Below, piece by piece: positions 1,614 through 50,525 of a stretch of DNA of 64,000 nucleotides. Source of the stretch: Astropecten irregularis (taxonomy: Eukaryota; Echinodermata; Asteroidea; Paxillosida; Astropectinidae); NCBI GenBank assembly GCA_963971285.1, contig OZ020258.1:2790001-2854000 (forward strand). Reading direction: 5' to 3'. The notes under the pieces are model-generated. The model made no database searches and was not told where the DNA came from. It saw only the letters and a program-made list of their open reading frames with translations. The first letter of the stretch is position 1, and each line of letters starts with the position of its first letter. Made by a program: the position numbers and the translations under genes.

Positions 1614-4600
1614 ATGATCTCAAAAATGCGACTCTTCAGCCTGTACACCAGACTGACTCTCGTTGCTGTCCTGATGCTTGGACTAGCCACTGCCGCAGAG
1701 GAAACTACGGGGGTACGGTATTCATTTTGCAGAATAAAACCTATGACATGCACATGCATATAATACGAATTCGGCTTGTACAACCGTTGGTGTGTGTTAT
1801 TTGGGTAGATGTCTGTTTACAAGCCTTTGGATTATGTGTTTGCTCATCGCATTTGTTGATATCTACTTCAGCTAATATGAACTTTGGCTTTGAATTGTCA
1901 AAATACAAGATGACCGTATCAGGTTCGCACTTCTTGCACTTCTTGCAGAGTAAATGCGCAACTTGCGACAATCATCCACCGAGTCCGGCATTCTCTCTCC
2001 TGAAGACGACTAGAGCACACTAGTCGAAACGTCGATAATCCATCCTCATCGGTCCTTTTCAGGACCACACATCTTCATAAAACATTATTACACAAATACA
2101 CATGGTGTCACCGCAAGTCTTACTCATTCTTGCGACAAGCTCATTTTTTTTTATCTTGCGAAGGGGCGTATCTCTTTCATAATAACGATTAGGCCTATAG
2201 GCCCACAGGTAGGTGTAACTCTCCAAAAATGTTGCTCTTCTTGGCAGTGTCGTCTGTGCATCCAGCAGTTTATAGTTGTTATGTCTACCACCCGAAGAAT
2301 GTATGTCAAGGGCAGTGCACTAATCACACAAACAAAGTTTGATATCGATGCAAAACATATATCCATTCTATCTATAGGATGGCTCCTCACCAAAGAGGAC
2401 AAAGGTCATGCTTCTTCTTCTAGATGGCATGCGCTCTGACCTCTACGGAGAGAGACTTCCGGGCCTGAAGTCCATGGAGTTGAACGGTGTGAGGGCGGAG
2501 TGGATGACACCGGCCTATGTCACGCTGTCCATGCCGAATATGTACACCATCGCCACTGGTAATCTTAGCATAGGAGCCTAGGTCCGAATGGACACCATAG
2601 GCACCATTTACTCGAATCCAGCACCCATGACAAATATCGACGATGTTTGGCAAGATAAGAGTCGCAGTTGAACATCCTTGCAGCCTCTTAGTCTTAGTGA
2701 CGTATCACTGCCATTACGTGCAGCAAAACTTAAATAGCACCAACATGACACCGACATAACATCGATACAAGTCGGTTATAACATTTCTGTGACGATGAAA
2801 GAACATGAGTGAAACAACAACATAACACATAAATGTAACACCTTTGCTAAACCAGAGGGCCAACTAATTGGCCCACGACAGTTTCTGCTACCGGCATTCA
2901 TAATGTTTTATTTGCTGTTTCAAGTGTTGTGTCCAAACATCTTGACAATAATTCTGTAACGTTTTTTCCTCTCTGTTTTTATACTAAAGGTTTGTACCCG
3001 GAGAGTCACGGTATAACGTTCAACAAGTACTATAATCTGTCCACGGGTTATAAGTCCAAGACATTTTATGATACCCTGAACATCACCGAGTGGTTCAATG
3101 CTCCGGGTGCGGAACCGATTTGGGTGACGGCAATCAAGCAGGGTCTGAAGGCAGGAACCGTCCAGTACCCGGGCGGAAACGTGGCCATCCGTGGAGTCCG
3201 ACCCACCAAGAACTCCCCCGGTGTGCCCTGGCAGCAGCTCGGTCAGTATCCCCTCACAGGCCTGATAGACATCGGTCTTGACTGGCTGAAAAGCGACGAC
3301 ATGGACCTGGTGTTCGTGTACTCTGGCCAGCCGGACAGTACCTTGCACGGCAAGGGAATCGGTCACAAGAGCACCACGACCAAAATCAAGGAGGTGGACG
3401 AGGCGGTCCAGTACCTGTTTCAGAAAATTCGAGATCTCGGGTGGGAGAACACCCTCGACGTCATCGTGACGAGTGACCACGGGCATGTCAATATAGACCA
3501 ACGCCGCTACGTGGAGTTGTATAATTACATCAACGCAAGCGACATACAGATGGGTCTCCTGGACTACGGCAACACGTTCCAGATCGAGCCAGTTGAGGGG
3601 AAGCTGGATACGGTACGTATTCTTGTCGCCATAGAGCTTTTCTCCGAATGATAGACCTGATTTTTGTCAACATCCAGGAGAACTTAATAAACAAAAATGA
3701 GAGACAATTTCGAAGTTTCCTTCTTGACGATTGTCGCGAACCGGTTGTCCAGTAAATCAGTCGCCTTGTGCCACGTAGGCCCACGTGGCTCTCGCGTTCC
3801 TCCATGATATAGGCACAATTATAAGTGACCGTTACTTTTTTTCCGTCGCCAATATGGTCGCATCTTCTATTTGTTTGTTTCAATTCAACATAAATGATCG
3901 TGATTTAATTTTCTCTTCAGCTTTACAACGCCTTGGTGAATGCACATCCCCAGCTGAATGTCTACAAGAAAGAAGACTTCCCCGTTCGCTTTCACTACGC
4001 CAACAGCGATCGGATCATGAAGCTCCTGGGATACGTGGATTCCAACTGGTATCTCTTCACCGTAAGTAACAGATTTTCCTTTTTCTGATTTTCTGATTGT
4101 AGTCAGAAAACAGAAGTGACTAAAGTGCAGCCATATCATTATTGTACAGACTTCAGGGTAGAGCATAGCCAATGTGGACAGTTTCATAACGAAATCTGGT
4201 GGTATAAATCGCACGGGCCTCACGTCTGTGGATTGTGCTCATCAGTGTACAGTGTGGATGTGTCCCTTACTTCTCTACAATAGATCTCATGCACTGACGT
4301 AACCTCGCCGCCATCTTAGCTAGGCAGCGTTATGATGAAAGTTTTTCTTTTGACCTTTAGCTCAGGGCGTCCTCTTCGCGTAATTATAAGTTTCATCGGG
4401 GCTTTTGTCTGGAAAGATTGTGCCCATCTGGGTATATTGGCGCGGTTTTTATTCCATGATTGAAGTGTGGATTCTCGTATTTGTTCTCTCTCAGAGAAAA
4501 ACAGACAGTAGCTTCTTCTTAGCAGCTGATCATGGCTATGACAACCAGAATCCGGAGATGAGGTCCATCTTCTACGCCCAGGGACCTAGCTTCAAGAAGG

Positions 4601-7543: not shown

Positions 7544-10500
7544 ATGGCAATGGGGAGAATTTTCTGCGGACATTTGTGGCGCAATTTGCCACTCCTGGTA
7601 CTGGGTCTCGTCTTGCTGACCAAGCCAATGGCCGCCAAGGTAAGCAGTCGTAATTAATATTTGACAAAATTGCAGACTGTAAATGAATTCGAGGGTTGGC
7701 ATACCAAGGACACTTACGGTGTAATGGGCATACCATTGAACGTCGGAAAAGCTACTTGCTTATTCGGTCATGTCATTAGCGCGGGCACGACTTTGGTATC
7801 GTGCAGAGGGACATTGTTTGGCCTGTGTCGAGACCGGACCTGAATGCTCCATGCACCCGATAGATAGGCTGGCCACAACACAGCAGAAACACTGGTTAGG
7901 CAATTGCTATAAAAGTTTGCCCTGATTGAAAGCTAATAAATTACACTGCATGCCAAAATGTACAAACTTTGTGTGTCAAAGGAGCTGGTAATTTCCTCTA
8001 ATCTTGACATTGGACAACGACAATCCGCATTAAGTTTATCTGTAATGAAGGCAACACTCTAAGGCGACACCGGCATATAACGACCGTTTGAACTCGTCGT
8101 ATATGATAGTCTTCCTCACACTGACTCGTTAGAATGTGCCCAAATGACAGGAGAAGGTCTTCCTCATGCTGGTTGACGGCCTTCGGTGGGACCGTCTCGG
8201 ATATGACTTCCCGGCCCTGGACATGATGGAGAAGGACGGTGTGAGGGCAGACTGGACGGACCCTGTTTTCATCACGGTTTCCTCGCCAAGCATGATGTCC
8301 ATTGCAACAGGTATCCACATTACTTTTTCATAGTAAGCGTATAGCCATTAAACACCCCAGAGTTGTCCAAGGTGCCAAAGAAATTAGGGGAATAACAATG
8401 TCATACGACGTTAAAGAGCTGATATCAGGCACATTTCACCTGTAATCCAAAGGTGGCAGGGCAGCACACATACAGATGACCATCATGTATAATTGCCATT
8501 GCACGATGGTCAGGGGATTTCAGTTGCTCCTTTGTCTCTCTTGACCGGTAGGGACACACATTAATTGCTCTTGATTTAAACTTCAGAGGGACCGTATTCG
8601 CCTCAAAAGGCCTCCGTGAGGCTGTCTGCAAAAACTGACAAGTCTGATTCCCGCAAAGCGGTGACAATGTTTGGAGAGCTAGTGGATGGTATCAACCATC
8701 CCCAGGAAGGTCTGCCTGACACCAAAGCATTGCCGTCCTGCAGACTATTTTAGGGATTTTCGCACTAGCAATGCGGAAAGGGGTTTTGCCAGCCCACCCT
8801 CACCAAGTCATTGACCCGTATTGAATTACATCACTCAAGATGATCATAGAATGTGAGGTTGCTGTTTCGTTTGACATGATCCACTACCAATTCACAAAAT
8901 TATTATACATGTCCACAGGTCTCTACGTTGAAAGCCACGGAGTGGTACACAACCAACCCTTTGATCCAGAGACCAAGGAGATCGCACCTGGTTACCTAGA
9001 AGGTCTGAACAATACCTGGTGGTTCAACGGCGGAGGGGAACCAATCTGGATCACCGCAATGACTCAGGGTCTGAAGGCGGGCACCTTCATGTACCCAGGC
9101 GGTCAGGTGCCCATCAGAGGGTACCAGCCAACACGCTGGCAGGTGTCCTCGAACGAGGAGAGGAGGCGCTACGCGAACCTGACGGATCGAGTCGACGTAA
9201 TTTTCGACTGGCTGTACGGGGAGGACGACCTGGACATTGTCATGTTCCACGTAGAGGTCCTGGACAACGCCTTGCACGCCTTCGGCTTCAACGGCCTGAA
9301 CGTCGCCAAGAATGAAGCAGCCAAGATCAACGATCTGATCGAGTACATCCTGACGAAGAAGATGCAGGATGCGAGGGTGCGGGACACCTTGAACTTCATC
9401 ATCACCAGTGACCATGGCATGATAGAGACTCCGGCCAACAAGAGGATCTACTTGTACGATTACATCGATGAAGCTGAAGTGGACTTTATTTTTGCGGACA
9501 ACGGTCCATTGTTTCAAATCAAGCCAATAAATGACTCTATAGATCAAGTAAGTATCACATCCCAATCCTGATTGAATAAATTCATCAAAGTATTACCGTT
9601 TTAACAGCTTGTTTTCCTTGAAAGTGTTTCAAAACAAAATCATCAGGTAGCATAAGAGCAGCGAGGGTGTGCAATGTCTTGATTTGAACTTTGAGCAGGT
9701 CTTCAACAACATAGGTATATAGCGGTATGTGCGTGGTTTCATGGCTTCTTACTGCCAAAGTTCCAAGATAATTAACTATTGAGGCCACCACCAACGTAGG
9801 GCTGGATGGCTCAGTTGGTAGAGAGCTATATACAGTATTCAGGAGGTCGCCGGTTAGAATCCCTCTCCAGTCAATTTTCCTTTGTTCACCTTTCAAGGTC
9901 TTCAACAAGTTGAAAAATGCTCATCCTGCTATGTACGTCTACAAGAAAGAGGACTTCCCAGAGAGGTTGCACTATGGTAACAACCCAAGGAACCTACCCA
10001 TTATAGGCTTTGTCGATCCAACATGGACACCCTTGACAGTAAGTGGTCTTGATGTTGTGTCTGACGGTAAAGAACGACAATGGAACTTCTCCACAGTCAT
10101 TGAAGGGCAATAAAATATTTGCACAATCTCCAGTTATTATAATACTCTCCGCCCATTATTTGTTGTCATTAATTGGTGGAAGATTTGCGTCTCCTAAGAA
10201 GTGTCTCCTAAAACGGAAATTACAAGGGTATAGGCCCACATTGTGAGAGCACGGAAACTGGAATATGAAATTAGATTTAGCGGTTTCCCAGCCTGTCAAA
10301 CAACTTTTTACACCACTTTTCCCACGACCTTTCAAATTCAGATACACCTTTTTTTCGAGATGATAATATCATTAAGGAGTCGATTGACAACAAATTTTAA
10401 TCATTTTTCTCGGTCATCAATATGAAAATCTCTTTCTTTTTGGTATAGAAAAAACAAATTTACTTGATGGCTGCCGATCACGGGTATGACAATGAGGACA

Positions 10501-14153: not shown

Positions 14154-14245
14154 CTACGTCACCCCCGATCCCTCCGTCTTGCTTCTCCTGGTCAGTACGT
14201 CGCCCCCGATCCCTCCGTCTTGCTTCTTCTGGTCTACTACGTTGC
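13995..14245. repeat. 42-bp coding minisatellite, about 6 units
   Basis: The unit contains CTCCGTCTTGCTTCT and CTGGTCAACTACGTC on the + strand and encodes the 14-aa kinase tail repeat on the - strand. One unit (near 14186-14196) reads GTCAGTACGTC instead of GTCAACTACGTC, one base short, and this is where the frame changes. Confidence 0.85.
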
Positions 14246-15068
14246 CGAGAACAGTGACCACGTCGTATGCACTTGGCCTATCGTGGTGATTTGTCTGCAG
14301 CATTTTCTCCACCAATGCACGGATGCTTTTGCTGATCCGAAGGTTATTCTCCAGTCGGTAGCACGGCACCAGCTGGCCATGAAGGGCTCTCCCGAGACCC
14401 ACTATGCCGTTCTTATCTTCCACGTGGGTTGCTACGAGCGTTTCATCTTTAGAAGACACGGTCTTTCTTTCCAGAAGGCAGGCGAAAATTGCTCCCATTT
14501 GGAAAATATCAGTCTTCTCAGTACAACGCCCGCCAATTACTTCGGGTGCTATGAAGAAGAGGTGGCCATCATGACCTTTCATGTAGTAGTCGCGCAGACT
14601 GCCATCATGCCGGCTGGTCGAGGCGATGTAAGCAAGGCCAAAATCGCCAATCTTGATGGTTTCATCGGCGGTGAGCAGTATGTTGTCTGGCTTCAGGTCA
14701 CGGTGTATGATGCCGTTGCGATGTAGGAAGGCCACGCCTGTGGCGATCTCTGTCATAAATCTAGATTCTCGCTTTAGGTCGAGATCGTGGGACAACAGGT
14801 AATCATTCAGATTGCCGCCGCTGCAGTACTCCAAGACCAGGCAGATGTCCTGATCCAGTCTGACGTTTTTGTAGTAGGTGACAATGTTCGGGTGATCTGG
14901 CAACCCATATAGTGCTTTATATTCATCCAATGATGACTGGGTAAGTGGAACAATCTTCAGAGCACGTTCCTTTCCTGTGTCTCGTTCTTCCCCTCGAAAA
15001 ACCTCACCAAAGCACCCACTGCCCAAACGTATGATATTTGAGTACCTATCTCCCAGTTTGTCTGCCAT
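14154..15068 (-). CDS. intronless Ser/Thr kinase, STK35/PDIK1L-like
   Basis: A single open frame of 304 aa starting MADKLGDRYS. A full kinase domain covers about 9-275: Gly loop GSGCFGEV (16-23), ATP lysine K38, helix-C E49, catalytic loop HRDLKPDN (122-129), DFG (142-144), APE (174-176). The LLERKT block and the VGLGRALHG segment after APE match the layout of STK35/PDIK1L kinases, which are nuclear or actin-associated in mammals. All catalytic residues are intact, so activity is expected. Residues 276-304 are one and a half units of a 14-aa repeat ending in a frameshifted tail and stop. The lack of introns may mean retroposition or simply the usual state of this family. No intron or exon signals lie between 15069 and 15640. 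Confidence 0.8.
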   Translation of the reverse strand: MADKLGDRYSNIIRLGSGCFGEVFRGEERDTGKERALKIVPLTQSSLDEYKALYGLPDHPNIVTYYKNVRLDQDICLVLEYCSGGNLNDYLLSHDLDLKRESRFMTEIATGVAFLHRNGIIHRDLKPDNILLTADETIKIGDFGLAYIASTSRHDGSLRDYYMKGHDGHLFFIAPEVIGGRCTEKTDIFQMGAIFACLLERKTVSSKDETLVATHVEDKNGIVGLGRALHGQLVPCYRLENNLRISKSIRALVEKMLQTNHHDRPSAYDVVTVLGNVVDQKKQDGGIGGDVLTRRSKTEGSGVT

Positions 15069-15642
15069 TTCTTACTCTTCTGTTCCCAACTGACTTGATT
15101 CCGCCTTATTTCTTCAAGTCTGCTTCAGACCACTTTGAGTTCCAGCATGTAATAATGACTACATATGTTGCATATGCTAATGAAGCGCTACTGTTCATGC
15201 CATATGGTGATGGAATTTTCGATATGTTTTTGTGCCTATTGTTGCTCGGAACCCCACCAGGGCTTGGTTCAAGTGACTGGTATGACCTAATATGCGTAAT
15301 TTAATGTACACATAAATAGCATTATACACAATGTGGACTTGACGACAATGCACCTAATGCAAGCGAGACGTTATGTGCACACGTCCGCGTAATGTGTTGA
15401 TGCCAACGAAAATGCCAAAAGGGAGAACGTTTTAACAATCATGTTTTCATCTTTCACAAATTGAAGTTTATCATTCAAGGGATATTCGGTCCAACTCCAA
15501 ATACCATCATGAAAAATGGGTACAGTGAAATATGTTGGTTTGAAGCTGTTGCCCATTTGGTTAGAGCATGAGAACAAAGGAAAGTCCGCTTACGGTATAT
15601 GTAAAATGTGGTATGTATGGGTGTATTATAACCCCAGACATT

Positions 15643-32787: not shown

Positions 32788-33583
32788 TTATCGGTGTTCG
32801 GTTGGCGGCGTGTATTTGCCTTCTGCCATCAGCTTCTTCCTCTGAGCCAAGATCGTTTTAAACCTCTCCATCTGTCAAAACATAAACAACAAATAGAGAA
32901 GGTCTTTTATAACACAATAAATTAAAAAAATTTATCCATTATCCTCAGTGACAAAGAAATTTATTGTGGGTCTTTTTGACAGAGCGTCGCAATAAAAGAG
33001 CTCAACTACAAATTGGACTAAGGGGGCCGATTTCACAAACACCCAAATCCATCGCTAAACGGAAAATCGATCGCTACTTTGCGTAGCAATCTTCTGGTTA
33101 GCGATGGAATTGGGCTTTAGCATTGATCGCAAAGCGTTACAGTGAATTCGGCCCCTGGTTAACATGGCAATGCATGGTGTCTTGCTAGTTTTTCCAGAGC
33201 TTGAATATACACCACTGTGGACCACTGTGCCAAAGGTGGCTGAATTTCATTGGTCTGTTTCATGATGGAGTCAAGATTTTTCCCGCCAGAAAATTTGAAC
33301 ATTCCAAGGAGGAATGTTGAGACCAAGGCAGACAAGCGACGAATTCCAGGCTTGGGCAGTGGGCGCTATATATACGCACCTTCTTGGCTCCCTGGTTGCA
33401 CTCCCAGAAGTCTTCCATCTCAGACTTGCACTCAGTCCTTGCCCGCTTCCAGCCAAGTCCGTCCGCACATCGTAGGAAGTCTAACTCCAGATCGGCACAT
33501 CGCGGTTTCTCTCGGACGGGCCCGTCCGGGAACTGCAGGCCGATAAATTTCTTATCCCAGTCGTGAAGGTGAAGGAAAGGCAT
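32788..33583 (-). CDS. NDUFS5: NADH dehydrogenase (ubiquinone) Fe-S protein 5, complex I subunit
   Basis: Two coding exons on the - strand, 33583-33380 and 32871-32788, joined in phase 0, giving 95 aa (human 106). The start ATG gives MPFL, as in the human protein. Twin CX9C motifs are visible at C29/C39 and C52/C62; these form the disulfide-linked helical hairpin of an intermembrane-space protein imported by the MIA40 route. The second exon keeps the family tail (GKYTPPTEH). NDUFS5 is a small accessory subunit on the intermembrane-space face of complex I. An acceptor-like ATCATCAG stands just before the start codon, so a non-coding first exon probably lies upstream, perhaps near 35.3 kb. Convergent with USP14, divergent from the next gene. 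Confidence 0.9.
33022..33156. mobile_element. fold-back MITE (GGGGCCGATTTCAC)
   Basis: Ends GGGGGCCGATTTCACAAAC and GTGAATTCGGCCCC, with ATCGCTAA/TTAGCGAT arms. Inside the NDUFS5 intron. Confidence 0.6.
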
Positions 33584-33668
33584 GGCTGCACCTGATGATA
33601 TCAAGTGAATGGCAATCAAGTAGATCTTGAGAGTATATTTCACAACATCCGTCTGGTTACACTTTGGG

Positions 33669-33918
33669 AAAGAATTCCACTGACGGCCATTACGGAAACA
33701 GGGTTATTTCCTCCAAGAGTTAACTTATTGGATGCAAGTCATGATGAACTTCAATCTCAGGAGTGAAAACTGGTGTAGCTTATCTAAAAAGTGAGATTTT
33801 CAGGGTTTTTTTACCTACTATTATACACTTCGAATGCAGCGGTAGCCATTTTTCTCAAAACGCCCTCTGTTGGTCCCATAGGTTTGTGCACAAGTGATGG
33901 CCGTCAGTGGAATTCTTT
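33669..33918. mobile_element. MITE with AAAGAATTCCACTGACGGCC ends
   Basis: Inverted ends AAAGAATTCCACTGACGGCC and GGCCGTCAGTGGAATTCTTT are exact over 20 bp. It lies about 90 bp upstream of the NDUFS5 start codon. A partial copy (44421-44580) forms part of the 3' flank of the EF-hand gene. Confidence 0.85.
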
Positions 33919-36747: not shown

Positions 36748-39700
36748 ATGGCTGAGGTACTTGAGAGGAGGCAGGCCATACTTGGTGCCTTCTTCAAGGA
36801 ATATGACACTGACTGCACAGGGGAGCTGACTGTCTGCCAACTACAGTCCATGCACGCCAACTTACGACAGGGAGGTGTGAGTCTTGGACAGGTAAGGAGA
36901 TTTGAAACAAAGCCATCATTATTAAGTAGGCAGTGTATATTTTGCTGGACTGGAATTCTTACTGCAAATGCTATTTTGCCATTCCCTTACTCTGAATGCC
37001 CAATTTTCAGTATTTGAAGGTACCTCCGGAAAAATAACATTTAGAGACTGAAAGCCGATTGTCGACGGATCGAGCATTGGCCAATCAGAAGAATGACGGT
37101 GGCCGGCAAAAATCACTTCCTATCGATGGAGAGCCAAATGTGCTTTGCATGACAATCTTAGAAGTATTTAGAGATATCTTTTGCAAAACATTTTTCAAAA
37201 GAAACAGTCATTGAAATTAAACAGTCATTGAAATGAGTGTTAAACCATCGGATCTTCTCAGAACTAAACACACTTATAGCTAAGAGATTACATGGTGTCT
37301 CAGCTCCGTAGACCTACCTTATTTACTTTCAACATGCATAGCTTTAAAGTCTTATGAAATGGAGAGTGAACAAAGAAAAATTGACTGAAGCAGGATTCGA
37401 ACCTGAGACCTTCGGAACCGCTCTAAAGGTTGTTTGTTCGAATCCCGCTCCATTCAATTTGTTTTTATCACCCTTCAATAATCACATATCATGTAGAGTT
37501 TTTTCTCAGCCTGCCTTTAAAGGTAATATCATACTTTGGTTTTTGTCAAAGAAGTACAGATTCATTGGCAAAAATATCAAGGACGATACAGTAAAAGTCA
37601 TCTGTGAAAATTTCAGTCCCATACGGAGCCCACTTTTTAAGAAAACAGTGAAAAAAAGCCATAGTATTTCTTAAGTCTTTTCTCTTTTATTTTTGATCTT
37701 TTAAAAGATCAAAAAGAATTTTGGTCGTTGTTTTACTAATTTCTGGATAAATACACCATTTAAGGCGGAACAATTTTAACTGTATGTTTCTACCACCACC
37801 ATCTTCATACCCTGTAAGTTATACGTAAATCTGTGAACATTTCTGTTTTGGTGTCTTACCAAAGTATGATACTACCTTCAATAATGTTCTTTGTACATCA
37901 GGTGCAAGCTGCCATGGGTTACTGCTGTCTGACAGACGACGCATGCGAGCCCAGCGAGCTGTTTGCCACTCTCCAGGAGTTGGACCGCCGGTACTTCCTG
38001 CTGCAGGACTTCCGCTGGGAGTTTGCCCTGCTGGACAGGACCCAACAGGATTTAATCACAGAAGACCAGGCTAGGTCGGTCCATCGTCATTAAAACTTCT
38101 CATCTTTTAGTCAGTAGTCTCCCTATTTTTCATTCTCATCATTTGCCTCGTCTCCTGGCATCTTTCGAGAGGAAGTGAGTTTGACATGTGTGAAGTTGCT
38201 AACATTGGCTTTGAATTTAATAGGCCATTATATCAGTGATCCCCTTGGCCTTCTGACAGGCAAAATTCCTCAGTCTGCCAAAGTTCAACTGTAAAAACAC
38301 TTTGACACCCTTGAGCATTATTAAGCTCCATGAAGCTGGGCAGCAGTGATATGATTTCAGCGGATTTACGATGGATCCAAGACCAAATGCCTGGGCAAGA
38401 GTTTTGTATGCAAGGTGGCCATTAAGAAGGCTAAAAATCAAAGCTATCAGAGGTAATAGCAACAGAATCATAAGATTCAGGGCAGCAAAAAATAGGAAAT
38501 TCATCCTAAAAACTGTCTAGATCGTAGTTTGAAGGAAAACATGCTCCAGATATGGAGTTTCAAAGGGGAGTAGAACATAGTGAAGAAAAGAACTCTGTTG
38601 GAATGTAGTGAATAATATACATTCCATCGTGTTTATGGCCCTCTGCTTACTTGCCTCAATCAGGTTCCTGTTTGAATCCGTCCACGGCCAGCTCTTCTCC
38701 AAGCGTCACTGGGAGCAATTCCTCAAGAGCAGACCGGTTCCCGGCAGCGGGGTCAGCTTTGCCGAGATTGAGGTCGACCTCTGCAACATTCCGAGCAAAG
38801 AGGACATGGAGTACGAAGAGATTGAGGAACAGCGACAGAAAGAAGGTATTGTCCCGTGTCTCTACTCTCTAAGAAATCTTGTAGCAAATTTGTAGTTTCT
38901 AAAACTTGAAGCAGTTTTATTTGATTCATAGGAATAAACACAATGTCATCCAAAACAAGAAATGGAATTGACATCATGTTTATAACAATGATCTAATATA
39001 TTCCCTGCTGGTCTAGTTCAAGGCCAGTTGAAGCTGTAGTCAATCTATAGTACTTATGATAAGGATGTTGCCCACTGTTAGGGATTATACATTCTCTGCC
39101 GTTTTAGCCACTACAAGCTGACGGCTTCCATTATTAGTTCTCTCTTATCTTCCAATGTTGCCCTTGTTCTAATGGATGTATCTGTTCCAGCTTCAATGGC
39201 ATCTCACCTCTACAACGCTCTCACATTTTCTTTTTTTCTGTGTCCAGTTTGTCTCCTAACTTGTCATGAGTCATCATAGCTAGATCGCTGGCTTTATATC
39301 CCATGCATTCCAGCTTTATAGCTGCTTTCTCCAAAATGTCATCCTCCCTTTGTATGTTCTTGCCAGATATTGTTTCTTGGTCCGCCTTTTCATCTTGTCT
39401 GTCTAAACAGTGATCTTAACCCTGTACCCTCTCTTTATCTTGATAACAGCTAAAGCCAGACATGCAGAGGAGAAACGGCAGGCCGAGGAGCAGGCCCGGA
39501 TACAGCGGCTGACCAAGATGGAGGCCAAGAGGCAGAGCAAAGCAGACGAGGAGAAGAAGAAGAAAGCCACAGCGGCCAAGAAAGAGGAGGAGATGAAGAA
39601 AGAGAGGGAGGAGGAACAACGTAGGAAACATGAGGAAGGTACGAAAATTGCATTTCACAATGCCGTTTTCACTCTATGAATGTTCTTTGTTCATCCAAAA

Positions 39701-42700
39701 ATCTTACTCGTTTGTGGTTTATTTGACCATAACAAAATATGCCTTAGGCCTTTACCTTTTTGTGGGACACCTGATGGTCTGTTTCTCAGATTTCCAGCAA
39801 TGCTCAAATTTCTTGTATCTTAATTGATGCTTGGAACATTCATAATTAGAATATCTGACTAGGACCTGAAAGACACAAAGACACTACCAACAGACAAAAA
39901 TAGCTAAGATGGTAGAGCTCCGGTGCAGTGTCCTTGAAGATGCAGCTTCCATCTGGTCGTACTTCTGTCGTTTTTTTTCGTTCTCCCCAAAGTGAGTTTA
40001 ATTCATCCAATCTCAACTGCCTTCACTCAAAGTTTGTTTCTGTTGTGAAAACAAATGTTTTGTTTTAAGGAGTTAAGCAACTCTAACACAGTCGTTGATA
40101 TCTCCAGAAAAAAATCCCTTCAATCCTACAAAACCAACCAACACCCTGGTATGGACTCAAGGGATTTTCTAGGATTCACGAGAGTTAGGGTATGCTTTGC
40201 TTTTTAAGCTTAGACTGCCTCAACGTAACATACTTCATTGATCAGGATCCTACAACTAACATCAAATTAAAACAGCCTTAAGTATGGAATTGTCTTGGAA
40301 AACAAAATCTTTGTCACAGCCCAAGGAAAGAAAGAAGCAGAGGACAGAGAGAGGGAAGAAGAGGAGAGGCGAAGAAAGCTACGACTGGAGGAGGAGCTGG
40401 AACGGGAGCGACAGAGGGAGCTGGAGATCATCGAGGTACAGCAGGCCCTGGAGGCCCAGAAGGAAGTGGAGAGGAAGGCCAAGGAACTGGAAGAGCAAGA
40501 GCGGAAGGAGCGAGAGCTGGCTAAGAATGCCGAAGAGGAAGCTGAGGTGAGCGCCAAAAGACTTCTTCGGTCAGGAATATACAAGAAAATGAAAACTTCA
40601 AACAAGTTTTGCAAACTGCAACTGCTGCAAACTGCTCAGCAACCACAATATCTACCTGAAAAATATGACTTAGAGTGAGGAGGGCCTGGCGTTACGATCC
40701 TAGTATGATCTCTCTCAAAGTTTAAATCTTCCTCAATTTAGCCTTTGAGAAAGAACTAGGATTGAAATGTCAGGCCCTCCTAACGATAAGCAAAATGAAA
40801 ACTTGACTAGATGTGCAATGATTCCTTTGGCTTTGTTGACCACAGATTGCAGCGGCTAAGGAGAAGGAGGCAGAGGAAGAACTGAAGCGAGCCAAGGAAG
40901 CCTTGAAGAATGCAACCGATGCAGCAGCCAAGAAGGCAGCTGAAGAGGCTGAAAAAGCTGCCAAAGAAAAAGCCAAACGTAAGACACTATTATCGCGTCA
41001 TCAAGAATGAGGGTGCCATATTCAAAACCCTAACCTTCCCTTGGGCTTCTCAGTAGGGCACCTTTCTTAATCTACCACAATCCTTACCTTACACTACCAG
41101 ATCTGTATCTGGTCTGAGCTGTCCCCAAAATGCCTTCCTCAGGTTTCCCACATTTCAGTTCCCAAGGTGAGACATCCTCAACTTTGCCTCATCTTAAAGT
41201 GTGTTTTAAGATTAGAGATGATGATTTGTTGATTGCAGGTGAGCGCAACGATCGCATCCGCAAGGACCTCAAGGTGGCCATCAAGCAGAAAGACCGCAAA
41301 CTCCTCAACAAGTCGGTCACTGAGTTCAAGAAGGCTAAGCTGGCCGACACGGACGGAGACTTACACAAGGCAGAGAGGATACTGACGCAGTTTCAAGCTA
41401 AGGATGGTAAGAATTCTCTTTTGGCCTCATGGCAAGCCTGAAATTAAATGGAGGCCAGGGGGCCATGGCCTTCTTTGCCCTGGTTCTTGGCCATGGTGCC
41501 CCTTAGACATTATGATTTTCCAATGGAAGTGGCCCTTGCAATGGAAAAGTGGCCTTGCCCCTTTCAGAACTTAATTCCAGGCCTGTCATGGGTGCTTGAA
41601 ATTCACTTCCATGCCATTTTCTTGCCCTTGACTGTCAATCTACAATCAGCATAATTTGAAAAACAAGACTGTCCATTCATTCATACCTCATACAAACCCC
41701 AGATGTTTTCTTGATCCTCATTGTGTAGTTATGCAGTCTTTATCGTCTTCTGTCTGGTAGCTACATGTACCTTCCTTGGTTAGACATGGCTTTGCTGCAG
41801 CCCTCTGCATTTTTCTTTTTATCTGATCAGTCTAATAAAGTTGGCTGTAACACCATGTTCATCCCTTCTTTGAGAGTATTATGTGATTGCGAAGAGAATC
41901 AGATGCTTGACATTTTGAACTCTGACAGTATTAGGAGGCTGCTGAATTTCAATCGAGGTGTAGCTTTATTTCAGTACCATGCAGGTCCAGTGAAGCATGA
42001 CAAAGAGGGATTCTGGGTGTAGGTGTGTAGTATCAACTTGGAGTTGTTATTTGAGGTTCACAGTGCGACTTTTGTCCTTATCTCCTAGATCTCTTGAAAG
42101 CCATGGAGAATCGCAACCTGGAGGAGCTGGAGAAGGCCATCAACTTCGTCAAGAAGAACTCAATGGAGGCCCACATGCCCCAGGAGATGGTGCGGGCCAA
42201 CAAGCTGCTCCTGAGTCTCAAACGCCTCAAGCGCCTCAAGGATGAGATCCTGAACCTGAAGCAGAGCACGGTGGCCGAGATCCGAAGCTACAACAAGCCA
42301 CCCCGGGCCGTCCACATGGTCATGACTGGCACTTATTTGTTGTTAGGCAACAAGGAGAAGGCGCTGAAGGTAGCTGCTTAAATCTATCCTGAGCTGCTTA
42401 AATCTATCCTGAGATCGGGGAAAGAGAGAGAGACTGAGAGAGATCAGCAGTCTCTGAAAGATGCTAGATTGGGGACTTGGAGAGTTGTCACTGTTTCATA
42501 AGTAATTCATGAGTAATTCAGTTTAAAACAGCATCTAGCTTCTTGTTGATGGAGAATCATTCATCTTGCAGCAGAGTTTTGATTGCACCCATTTTGCGTG
42601 GCACTTACGGTACTTCTCTCGTGTGTAAAAATGAAAATGGATGAAAAACATACCAAAACCAGCAAAAAAGCTGGTTTTGGTATGTTTTTCATCCATTTTC

Positions 42701-44391
42701 ATTTTTTTTATTAAAATTTGTATCGACTCGCATTTGATGGTCAAAAGGGTGGGGGGGGGGGATTTATCAGGGCCGCGGGGCATAAATGTATAACAGTGGA
42801 ATTAGCCTTTTTGAGGCCTATAAGCACAATGTGATATTCATCTTACGTCTTTCTGAAACATTGTCATCCTCTAATCATTTTGCACAGTACACTGAATCAG
42901 ATTGTTTGGGTCAATCGTCGCAAATAAAATTATGAGGCCAAATCTGCTGCGCCATTCATCAGCGCCTAATAGCGCTGCGCACTTGCGCTAAAAATACCAC
43001 TCCGAACCTCAGACAAACATTGCAACTGGCCATGCAAACGTGTGGTGAGATGGAGATGTGTGTGGGCGTGCATGCATGGTGTGACGTCATTAGTGCGGAA
43101 CGCTATTATACCTTCAGTGACGACTCTGAGGCCCCGATCAGCAGCTCTGATTAATGCATATCATTAACATAATCCTAGTTCATTCATTGAGAGTGGTGGA
43201 GTGTGTAATGATAATAGTGGTATGCTAATCACATTATAAATACTCATATGCCGTGACGATCAAGGATTGATTTTCCTTGTATTACTGAACGACAAGTGTA
43301 CATTCTCCGATCTTGACCTATCATGTTATGCCGTCGTGGCTTCAAAGTCTGCAAAGGAAGGTTGGGTTCAAATACAAAATGGCTTCAAACTGCACGCATG
43401 GTTATCACAAAGCTCAAGCCTGAAAAGGCCATGGCCTTCGTTGCTCTGGTTCTTGGCCTTGGTGCCCCTTCAAATGTTTCCATAGACATTATGATTTTCC
43501 AATGGAAGTGCCCCTTGCTATGGAAAATGGGCCTTGCCCTCACCAAACCTTATTTCCAGCCCTGAAAGCTTCAAGACTCATGCTGCTTAATCTGATTGTT
43601 CCCTGACAGGATTGGAAAGCGATGCAAGCGCTGGTCGGCAAGACGGGCAAGGAGGGACTGAAAAGACGTGTCCTGGAGAGCAACCCCACTAAGATTCCCG
43701 TGGCAACGGCCAAACGAGCCAAGGAGCTCCTGAAGGAGTTTGACCTGGAGCAAGTCCGAGACGTGAGCGCCGGTGCGGCAGTCTTCTACGCTTGGGTAAG
43801 TCAAAGATATAGGATCAGTAATTAAGAGATTAAGGCTAGTGTGTTGTCAATTTTACATTGATGCCCCTACGATATTCCTTAATTATGGGCGTTTAAGGAA
43901 CAGAGGCTCAGGCTCCATTTCGAAATTAAAAGAGAAAAGACTTAAGAAATACTGTGGCCGATTTTCACTGTTTTCTCAAAAATTTGGCATCGTATGGGAC
44001 TGGGAATTCCACAGATGACTGTTACTGTATCTCCCTTGATAATTTTGCCCATGAATCTGTATTTCTCTGACAAAAACCAAAGTATGATATTGCCTTTAAG
44101 ATATAATGAGAAATTAATCATTCTGGGAATTTGCGCTACAAATTTTGTACACAAAATCTCATAGTCTCTCTATCTGTGCGCGAGTCGCAACCATGGAAGT
44201 GCCATTTTGAAATTTTACCAAGTATCTGTTTTTTCTTGTGTGTTTGTACGCAGGCCTCGGCCACCATTGATGAAATAGAAGACATCATCAAGCAGAAGGA
44301 AGAGGGAATCGAACCCACGACCAGCCACACTGGAGGACCCAGGAAACTCAAACATGAACTGCAGTCTGGAACACTCACCATCACTATATGA
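36748..44391 (+). CDS. EF-hand-like / coiled-coil / dynein-stalk-MTBD-like protein
   Basis: Ten exons: 36748-36891, 37902-38074, 38664-38845, 39450-39638, 40320-40546, 40846-40978, 41239-41406, 42089-42369, 43610-43795, 44254-44391; all phases agree; 606 aa. Residues 1-140 look like paired EF-hand helices (FFKEYDTDCTGELTVCQL resembles one loop; Ca2+ ligands are incomplete). About 165-360 is a long Lys/Glu/Ala-rich helix, coiled coil or single alpha-helix. About 360-450 holds two similar helical-pair repeats. From about 455 a helix leads into AEIRSYNKPPRAVHMVM (PP at 476-477), DWKAMQALVG (from 500), IP, and VSAGAAVFYAWASATIDEI, which matches the order of motifs in dynein heavy chain stalk and microtubule-binding domain. 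No AAA ATPase module is present. I infer a microtubule or ciliary binding protein. The name is unknown to me. Confidence 0.85.
37355..37488. mobile_element. palindromic SINE chimera
   Basis: GTGAACAAAGAAAAATTGAC at the left and its diverged inverse at the right, each with a B-box-like TTCGAA(C/T)CC(T/C). Same head-to-head structure as at 30045. Intron 1 of the EF-hand/stalk gene. Confidence 0.6.
37519..37881 (-). mobile_element. TTAA-flanked MITE abutting an exon
   Basis: Full-length inverted copy; the right end CCAAAGTATGATACTACCTT stops about 20 bp before exon 2 of the EF-hand/stalk gene (37902). The element therefore lies in the branch-point region of that intron. Confidence 0.85.
42627..42706. 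other. perfect 37-bp inverted repeat with 6-nt loop
   Basis: Arms 42627-42663 and 42670-42706 are exact reverse complements across all 37 positions, with AAAAAA between them. The arm contains AAACATACCAAAACCAGC. On either strand a transcript would fold into an 80-nt hairpin without a mismatch. It lies in intron 8 of the EF-hand/stalk gene. It could be a short hairpin RNA source, a tiny fold-back element or a cloning/assembly palindrome. Confidence 0.85.
42967..43108. mobile_element. AATAGCGC MITE copy, reverse orientation
   Basis: Ends TAATAGCGCTGCGCACTTGC and CATTAGTGCGGAACGCTATT; interior shared with the 22003 copy (CAGACAAACATTGCAAC). Confidence 0.75.
43924..44100 (+). mobile_element. TTAA-flanked MITE, right half
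   Basis: Starts at the AAAAGAGAAAAGACTTAAGA landmark and runs to the right end (CCAAAGTATGATATTGCCTT). Intron 9 of the EF-hand/stalk gene. Confidence 0.7.
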
Positions 44392-49074: not shown

Positions 49075-50525
49075 AACATACTTGGGGTACTACTCCATAC
49101 TGGGGGAACTACTCCATACTGGGGGAACTATACTCCATACTGGGGGAACTACTAGGGGCACTACTCCATACTGGGGGAACTACTAGGGGGCACTACTCCA
49201 TACTGGGGGAACTACTGGGGGAACTACCTGGGGGCACTACTCCATACTGGGGGAACTACTGGGGGAACTACCTGGGGGCACTACTCCATACTGGGGGAAC
49301 TACCTGGGGGCACTACTCCATACTGGGGGAACTACTAGGGGGCACTACTCCATACTGGGGGAACTACCTGGGGGCACTACTCCATACTGGGGGAACTACC
49401 GTGGGGCACTACTTCATACTGGGGGAACTACTAGGGGAACTACTCCATACTGGGGGAACTACTAGGGGGCACTACTCCATACTGGGGGAACTACTGGGGG
49501 AACTACCTGGGGCACTACTCCATACTGGGGGAACTACCTGGGGGGCACTACTCCATACTGGGGGAACTACTAGGGGGCACTACTCCATACTGGGGGAACT
49601 ACCTGGGGGCACTACTCCATACTGGGGGAACTACCGTGGGGCACTACTTCATACTGGGGGAACTACTAGGGGAACTACCTGGGGGCACTACTTCATACTG
49701 GGGGCACTACTCCATACTGGGGGAACTACCGGGGGGCACTACTTCATACTGGGGGAACTACTAGGGGAACTACCTGGGGGCACTACTTCATACTGGGGGA
49801 ACTACTGGGGGAACTACCGGGGGCACTACTTCATACTGTGGGAACTACTGGGGGAACTACCGGGGGCACTACTTCATACCGGGGGAACTACCTGGGGGCA
49901 CTATACTCCATACTGGGGGAACTACCGGGGGCACTACTTCATACTGGGGGAACTACCGGGGGACACTACTTCATACCGGGGGAACTACCTGGGGGCACTA
50001 CTCCATACTGGGGGAACTACTGGGGGAACTACCGGGGGAACTACCGGGGGCACTACTTCATACTGGGGGAACTACTAGGGGGCACTACTCCATACTGGGG
50101 AACTACCATACTGGGGGTACTACCGGGGGGCACTACTTCATACTGGGGGAACTACTAGGGGAACTACCTGGGGGCACTACTTCATACTGGGGGAACTACT
50201 AGGGGGAACTACCGGGGGCACTACTTCATACTGTGGGAACGACTGGGGGAACTACCGGGGGCACTACTTCATACCGGGGGAACTACCTGGGGGCACTACT
50301 CCATACTGGGGGCACTACTTCATACTGGGGGAACTACCGGGGGGCACTACTTCATACCAGGGGAACTACCTGGGGGCACTACTCCATACTGGGGGAACTA
50401 CTGGGGGAACTACCGGGGGCACTACTTCATACTGGGGGAACTACTAGGGGGCACTACTCCATACTGGGGAACTACCATACTGGGGGTACTACCATATTGG
50501 GGGAACTACCATACTGGGGGAACAG
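49075..50525. repeat. 1.45-kb minisatellite, CTACTCCATACTGGGGGAA type
   Basis: Composed of two short modules: CTACTCCATACTGGGGGAA (often CTACTTCATACTGGGGGAA) and CTACCTGGGGGCA/CTACTAGGGGGCA. They alternate in changing order to give higher-order units of about 32-45 bp. Long open frames cross it because the modules lack stops, but their YWGN/GGTT content is repeat-driven and not a protein. Confidence 0.95.

Follow-up and report, generated by a model that had tools for sequence, protein, structure and literature searches.

Can the microtubule-binding tip of dynein exist in a protein that has no motor? The question is raised by a gene in a 64,000-nucleotide stretch of the genome of Astropecten irregularis (Echinodermata; Asteroidea; GenBank assembly GCA_963971285.1, contig OZ020258.1, positions 2,790,001 to 2,854,000 of the forward strand), hereafter called the window, in which positions are counted from its first letter. 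In discussions of dynein, the tip is treated as subordinate to an ATP-driven ring, which shifts the registry of its stalk. A first-pass annotation, made from the letters of the DNA, had proposed that the gene encodes a motor-less protein carrying a dynein stalk and microtubule-binding domain (MTBD) behind EF-hand-like and coiled-coil regions. Here, we report that the C-terminal domain is, judging from sequence comparison, a true yet distant relative of the dynein MTBD, and that no AAA+ ring is found with it.

Results

Homology of the C-terminal domain

Ten exons (36748-44391, forward strand) splice into an intact 606-aa protein with a coding sequence of 1821 nt running from ATG to TGA, and 9/9 introns are of the GT...AG type. 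The rebuilt gene confirms the coordinates given in the first-pass annotation as well as its view that the protein starts with its own ATG and ends with its own stop. The motifs that it had read as a dynein-like succession are in place, with EIRSYNKPP from residue 469, DWKAM at 500-504, IP at 528-529, DVSAGA from 550 and FYAW at 558-561.

When compared with Pfam, the C-terminal 196 residues match the family MT (PF12777) at E=1.5e-4, with 21.3 bits against a cut-off of 24; the families next in rank have 0.041 and 0.1. With the 107-aa globular part, PF12777 is the sole family at E<=5 (E=4.5e-4, 19.8 bits). The annotation had suggested comparing the 606-aa product with the Pfam stalk model, and this holds for the C-terminal pieces, below gathering, and not for the whole protein: PF12777 is not among the hmmscan matches of the latter at E<=1 and surfaces once the charged middle is omitted. 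Two pieces of the protein had no match in NCBIfam. A phmmer search of the PDB with the 196-residue piece (E<=1) returned 28 distinct sequences (best E=0.0017), of which 25 carry the name dynein. The other three we take for dynein heavy chains: MKIAA0325, presumably the mouse dynein MTBD of 6rzb, a 4583-aa chain labelled "Radial spoke head protein 9 homolog" and a 4191-aa one labelled "AAA+ ATPase domain-containing protein". The globular part returned 10 sequences at E<=1, eight with the dynein name, the others being MKIAA0325 and the AAA+ chain.

Profile comparisons point the same way. Alignment to five dyneins by hhalign gave 95.7% and E=9.9e-9 over 103 columns. A hidden Markov model (HMM) of six dynein MTBDs, built without the query, gives the 107-aa segment 39.3 bits; none of 5000 shuffled versions of the query scores above 10.0. 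With the HMMER filters off, the HMM gives the entire 606-aa protein 39.6 bits. When the same HMM was run on the window, cut into 1265 six-frame stop-to-stop segments of at least 30 aa each, the frame of exon 8 ranked first (E=3.4e-6) and that of exon 9, weak alone, second (E=0.017), the third segment having E=0.97. When the six dyneins were left out one at a time, they scored 66-139 bits, compared with 32-42 for the query, whose identity to five dyneins is 20-31%. Together, the Pfam matches of the pieces, the PDB and hhalign results, the six-dynein HMM, the shuffles and the six-frame control bear out the proposed dynein MTBD homology, and a significant profile match for the MTBD residues, without which the proposal was to be given up, is thus at hand. 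The domain that a dynein heavy chain carries at the tip of its stalk therefore has a counterpart here, at the level of a distant relative since the score lies below the Pfam gathering cut-off.

Absence of a motor and place in the genome

The six-module AAA+ ring of a dynein heavy chain was not found, in agreement with the annotation, which had described it as absent. AAA_6 (PF12774), one AAA module, has 86 exon-level matches in the 475.7 Mb genome searched and none on C22, the contig that holds the window, and the 606-aa product has no match to an AAA family in Pfam at E<=1. The genome count of AAA_6, the one AAA module that this search covered, is a lower bound. The 23 MT matches lie in 14 loci, all about 56 kb or less from AAA_6 matches on the same contig (compared by eye). 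The present gene is not among the 23, probably because the search runs exon by exon. When the genome was searched with the C-terminal 196 residues at E<=10, all three matches were the gene's own three exons, and this piece is thus present once in the genome. In the mitochondrial COX1 of the genome (L019), translation with the echinoderm/flatworm code (AAA=Asn, ATA=Ile) gives STNHKDIGTLY, which is the usual form, and translation with the invertebrate code gives STKHKDMGTLY, which makes an echinoderm the probable host.

Three pattern stretches in viral contigs and 47 in contigs of bacterial and archaeal genomes were considered as possible relatives, and none was confirmed; the collections being viral and prokaryotic, this has no bearing on conservation in animals. 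The literature searched, the coverage of which lies mostly outside subscription journals, yielded no account of a motor-free protein with an MTBD. Automatically assigned names for proteins of this kind may exist in databases.

Domain organization

The exons, all from the splice model, are as follows, with the further evidence for each.

36748..36891, forward strand: exon 1, residues 1-48, with the start codon and the first of the EF-hand-like loops (20-31); PF13499 (E=1.2e-4) and PF13405 (E=2.6e-4) match from residue 14, both below gathering
37902..38074, forward strand: exon 2, residues 49-106, EF-hand-like head with degenerate loop 93-104; paralogous domain on contig C1, 33% identity over 57-160
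38664..38845, forward strand: exon 3, residues 106-167, end of the head and start of the charged region; paralogue alignment and two-sequence profile
39450..39638, forward strand: exon 4, charged region resembling a single alpha-helix; charge-pattern count
40320..40546, forward strand: exon 5, charged region resembling a single alpha-helix; charge-pattern count
40846..40978, forward strand: exon 6, to residue ~350, where the charged helix ends; charge-pattern count
41239..41406, forward strand: exon 7, helical linker ahead of the stalk-like helix; weak Pfam matches only on 351-471
42089..42369, forward strand: exon 8, residues ~406-499, CC1-like helix (435-472), PP hinge (476-477) and beginning of the MTBD; E=3.4e-6 with the six-dynein HMM among the 1265 window segments, and the Pfam, PDB, hhalign and shuffle results
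43610..43795, forward strand: exon 9, residues 500-561, remainder of the MTBD, from the DWK motif through DVSAGAAVFYAW; six-dynein HMM, E=0.017 among the 1265 window segments, and the PDB and hhalign results
44254..44391, forward strand: exon 10, residues 562-606 plus the stop codon, with a short CC2-like helix followed by the tail; heptad count

Residues 1-166 alone match PF13499 in Pfam (E=1.2e-4, below gathering). Against the PDB they give eight matches at E<=5, none better than E=0.18; half are to proteins without an EF-hand, and the remaining four are to guanylate cyclase activators or myosin regulatory light chains. The genome has one further domain related to this head, on C1, which is 33% identical over residues 57-160 (E=4.4e-8). 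Aligned across two exons that were joined by eye, it scores 158, and none of 2000 shuffles exceeds 70. A profile of the head and this paralogue outdid the single-sequence search of the PDB, with 180 sequences at E<=1 and calmodulin as the best match (E=0.0013); the best 60 of the 180 comprise calmodulins and NCS-1 together with a single fusion of calmodulin type. As a rule, an EF-hand loop has Glu or Asp at position 12 and a central Gly. The two recognisable loops, 20-31 and 93-104 (DTDCTGELTVCQ and DRTQQDLITEDQ), both have Gln at position 12 in place of the Glu/Asp of a calcium-binding EF-hand, and the second also lacks the Gly at position 6. By homology the head is thus classed as EF-hand-like with degenerate Ca2+ loops. 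The N-terminus had been called a Ca2+-type, EF-hand-like region: the latter description stands, and the former is unsupported because both recognisable loops are degenerate.

The second gene with a related EF-hand-like head lies at C1:3674552-3674866 on the forward strand (L015/L017). Its downstream frames carry repeated helix motifs like ALEQKYDILREKLL, and it perhaps encodes a large helical protein.

Between the head and the linker, residues 167-350 consist to 59% of E/K/R and to 10% of LIVMFYW, and contain 103 opposite-charge pairs at i/i+3,4, compared with a mean of 67 and a maximum of 86 in 2000 shuffles. In seven 42-residue windows starting at 167-335, a/d heptad occupancy is 0.08-0.33, below what a coiled coil calls for. 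The scarcity of hydrophobics, the dense opposite charges and the low occupancy make a single alpha-helix more likely than the coiled coil assigned earlier, against which the same three features argue. Heptads are restricted to the two short helices flanking the MTBD, with best-register occupancies, given without shuffle control, of 0.64 (435-472) and 0.62 (557-584).

Residues 351-471 have Pfam matches to Dynein_C (E=0.036), DksA-like_N (E=0.064) and Fusello_VP2_Capsid (E=2.6), each far below cut-off, and the linker has one weak match in the PDB, "Mussoc" (E=0.047). A two-fold helical repeat in 351-458 was considered and rejected, as 148/1000 shuffles reach its score. There is a 34-nt repeat (74%) between exons 7 and 8.

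The introns hold several repeats. Intron 8 contains an inverted repeat whose 37-bp arms match perfectly and are separated by 6 bases (42627-42706). Inverted copies of 180 bp, 87% identical and perhaps from a dispersed mobile repeat, lie in introns 1 (37517-37696) and 9 (43920-44099), and two direct-repeat blocks, of 93% and 85%, are shared by introns 7 (41461-41585) and 8 (43427-43564).

Other features of the window

The neighbouring genes are described from individual matches and not from a systematic survey. They are given in order of position, together with a repeat.

2851-3651 and 8825-9571, forward strand: two frames matching PF01663 (type I phosphodiesterase/nucleotide pyrophosphatase), perhaps tandem ENPP-like genes
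14154-15071, reverse strand: protein kinase domain in a single long frame, which continues into a tandem repeat of 42 bp
33260-33703, reverse strand: match to NDUFS5 (PF10200, E=5.9e-9), upstream of the present gene and on the opposite strand
49077-50523: long minisatellite with several units of 19 to 235 bp and long open frames, including a 364-aa repeat frame, likely non-coding

A scan of the window for tRNA genes found none.

Discussion

The C-terminal domain shares with the stalk and MTBD of dynein heavy chains (PF12777; mouse cytoplasmic dynein-1, DNAH17 and the AAA+ chain of 8glv, which we take to be a Chlamydomonas inner-arm dynein) the succession E-I/V-K/R-S-x-x-x-PP, LLG, D-W-K, I-P, S-x-A-A and W within about 100 residues, and nine columns are invariant across six aligned sequences. 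Unlike these chains, the protein has a short stalk, an EF-hand-like head and no detected AAA+ ring, and unlike DNAH7 it has no flap insert in the alignment. The head resembles calmodulin-like EF-hand proteins (PF13499; calmodulin, NCS-1), its two-sequence profile aligning over 17-144 with calmodulin 15-141, but differs from them in its degenerate loops and weak scores. With the C1 paralogue it has in common an LCN-x-P motif near the domain end; the MTBD search gave no match in that gene, the other exons of which were only skimmed. Single-alpha-helix (ER/K) spacers are known from myosin VI/X and caldesmon; the charged region recalls them as a long E/K/R-rich stretch that is poor in hydrophobics and has opposite charges at i/i+3,4, and differs in the domains at either end.

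We consider it reasonably probable that the gene encodes a motor-free microtubule-associated protein, composed of an EF-hand-like head, a charged arm, a linker and a dynein-type MTBD, that would serve as a static anchor, spacer or cross-linker. The degenerate head (about 1-160) would be linked to an arm (167-350) that is probably a single alpha-helix, about 27 nm long if fully helical (0.15 nm per residue), followed by the helical linker and an MTBD of dynein-type fold on a short, presumably antiparallel stalk (CC1 about 435-472, CC2 about 557-584). In dynein, the ring shifts CC1 relative to CC2 and so sets microtubule affinity, as described in PMC6629372. Lacking an AAA+ ring that could move the two helices past each other, the present tip would have one fixed affinity, and given the missing ring and the short stalk, a constant grip would be its likeliest use. 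The tip would then hold the microtubule statically and the head would bind another partner, with a set distance between them, perhaps in cilia.

Several points weigh against this motor-free anchor. The PF12777 score is always under the gathering cut-off, and the globular part alone, as a single sequence, reaches E-values of 0.058 or worse in the PDB. The cilium as the site of action is a guess from the usual company of dynein. Two residues of the putative interface are also unfavourable. Mouse K3298 and R3382 are proposed tubulin contacts, and R3382 is reported in PMC4987762 and PMC4230729 to touch alpha-tubulin. There is disagreement about K3298, as the simulations of PMC4987762 back R3382 and found no K3298 salt bridge; the interface in PMC6629372 agrees with earlier data, some tubulin partners being shifted. 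We set the mouse numbering on the printed sequence through the E3378-R3382 spacing, by which K3298 falls on a lysine, as expected. Asp550 occupies the position of R3382, with Arg549 adjacent, and, in the PDB alignment, Gln464 that of K3299. These substitutions, the short stalk and a leave-one-out score outside that of the dyneins compared would suit a domain that kept the fold, lost microtubule binding and now acts as a protein-protein module. Yet Lys463 is retained at the K3298 position, the net charge of the domain is +9, higher than in the five dyneins compared (0 to +4), and DNAH17 and the L001 dynein are likewise non-basic at the R3382 column, where they have Ser preceded by Arg, as here, though also followed by a Lys that the query lacks. 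We therefore regard the loss of binding as unlikely, and since Lys463 is kept, Arg549 stands beside Asp550 and the charge is +9, microtubule binding by the C-terminal domain is plausible.

Other explanations are less likely. The EF-hand-like head would accord with the supposition of the first-pass annotation of a Ca2+-switched adaptor, the head sensing Ca2+ and altering the tip or the arm, but Gln at position 12 of both loops and the missing Gly of the second make this improbable. That the locus is what remains of a dynein heavy-chain gene, or a truncated copy of one, whether pseudogene or assembly fragment, would explain the dynein-related domain; the intact ten-exon frame with start and stop, the contig free of AAA_6 matches, an identity of only 20-31% to five dyneins, intron positions unlike those of three dynein loci (by eye) and an N-terminal domain of another kind that has a paralogue of its own render it very improbable. 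A chance likeness of helical, coiled-coil-like sequence, to which the Pfam score under gathering might point, can be given next to no credence, as the matches sit in the globular part, excluding the charged helix, and 0/5000 shuffles came near the score of the query.

In conclusion, a relative of the dynein tip occurs here with no ring detected, and we tentatively suggest, from sequence, that it is an independent, motor-free module of a structural protein with a static stalk and a charged alpha-helical arm, which may have split off before or near the radiation of dynein heavy chains and would not be a recent fragment. It may instead be a later offshoot that evolved fast. Should the fold or microtubule binding fail, the protein would be an ordinary divergent helical one. 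If the proposal is true, a natural tip without a ring would be a native experiment on the domain's own behaviour, a marker for the origin of the dynein stalk and an unstudied microtubule anchor in an animal.

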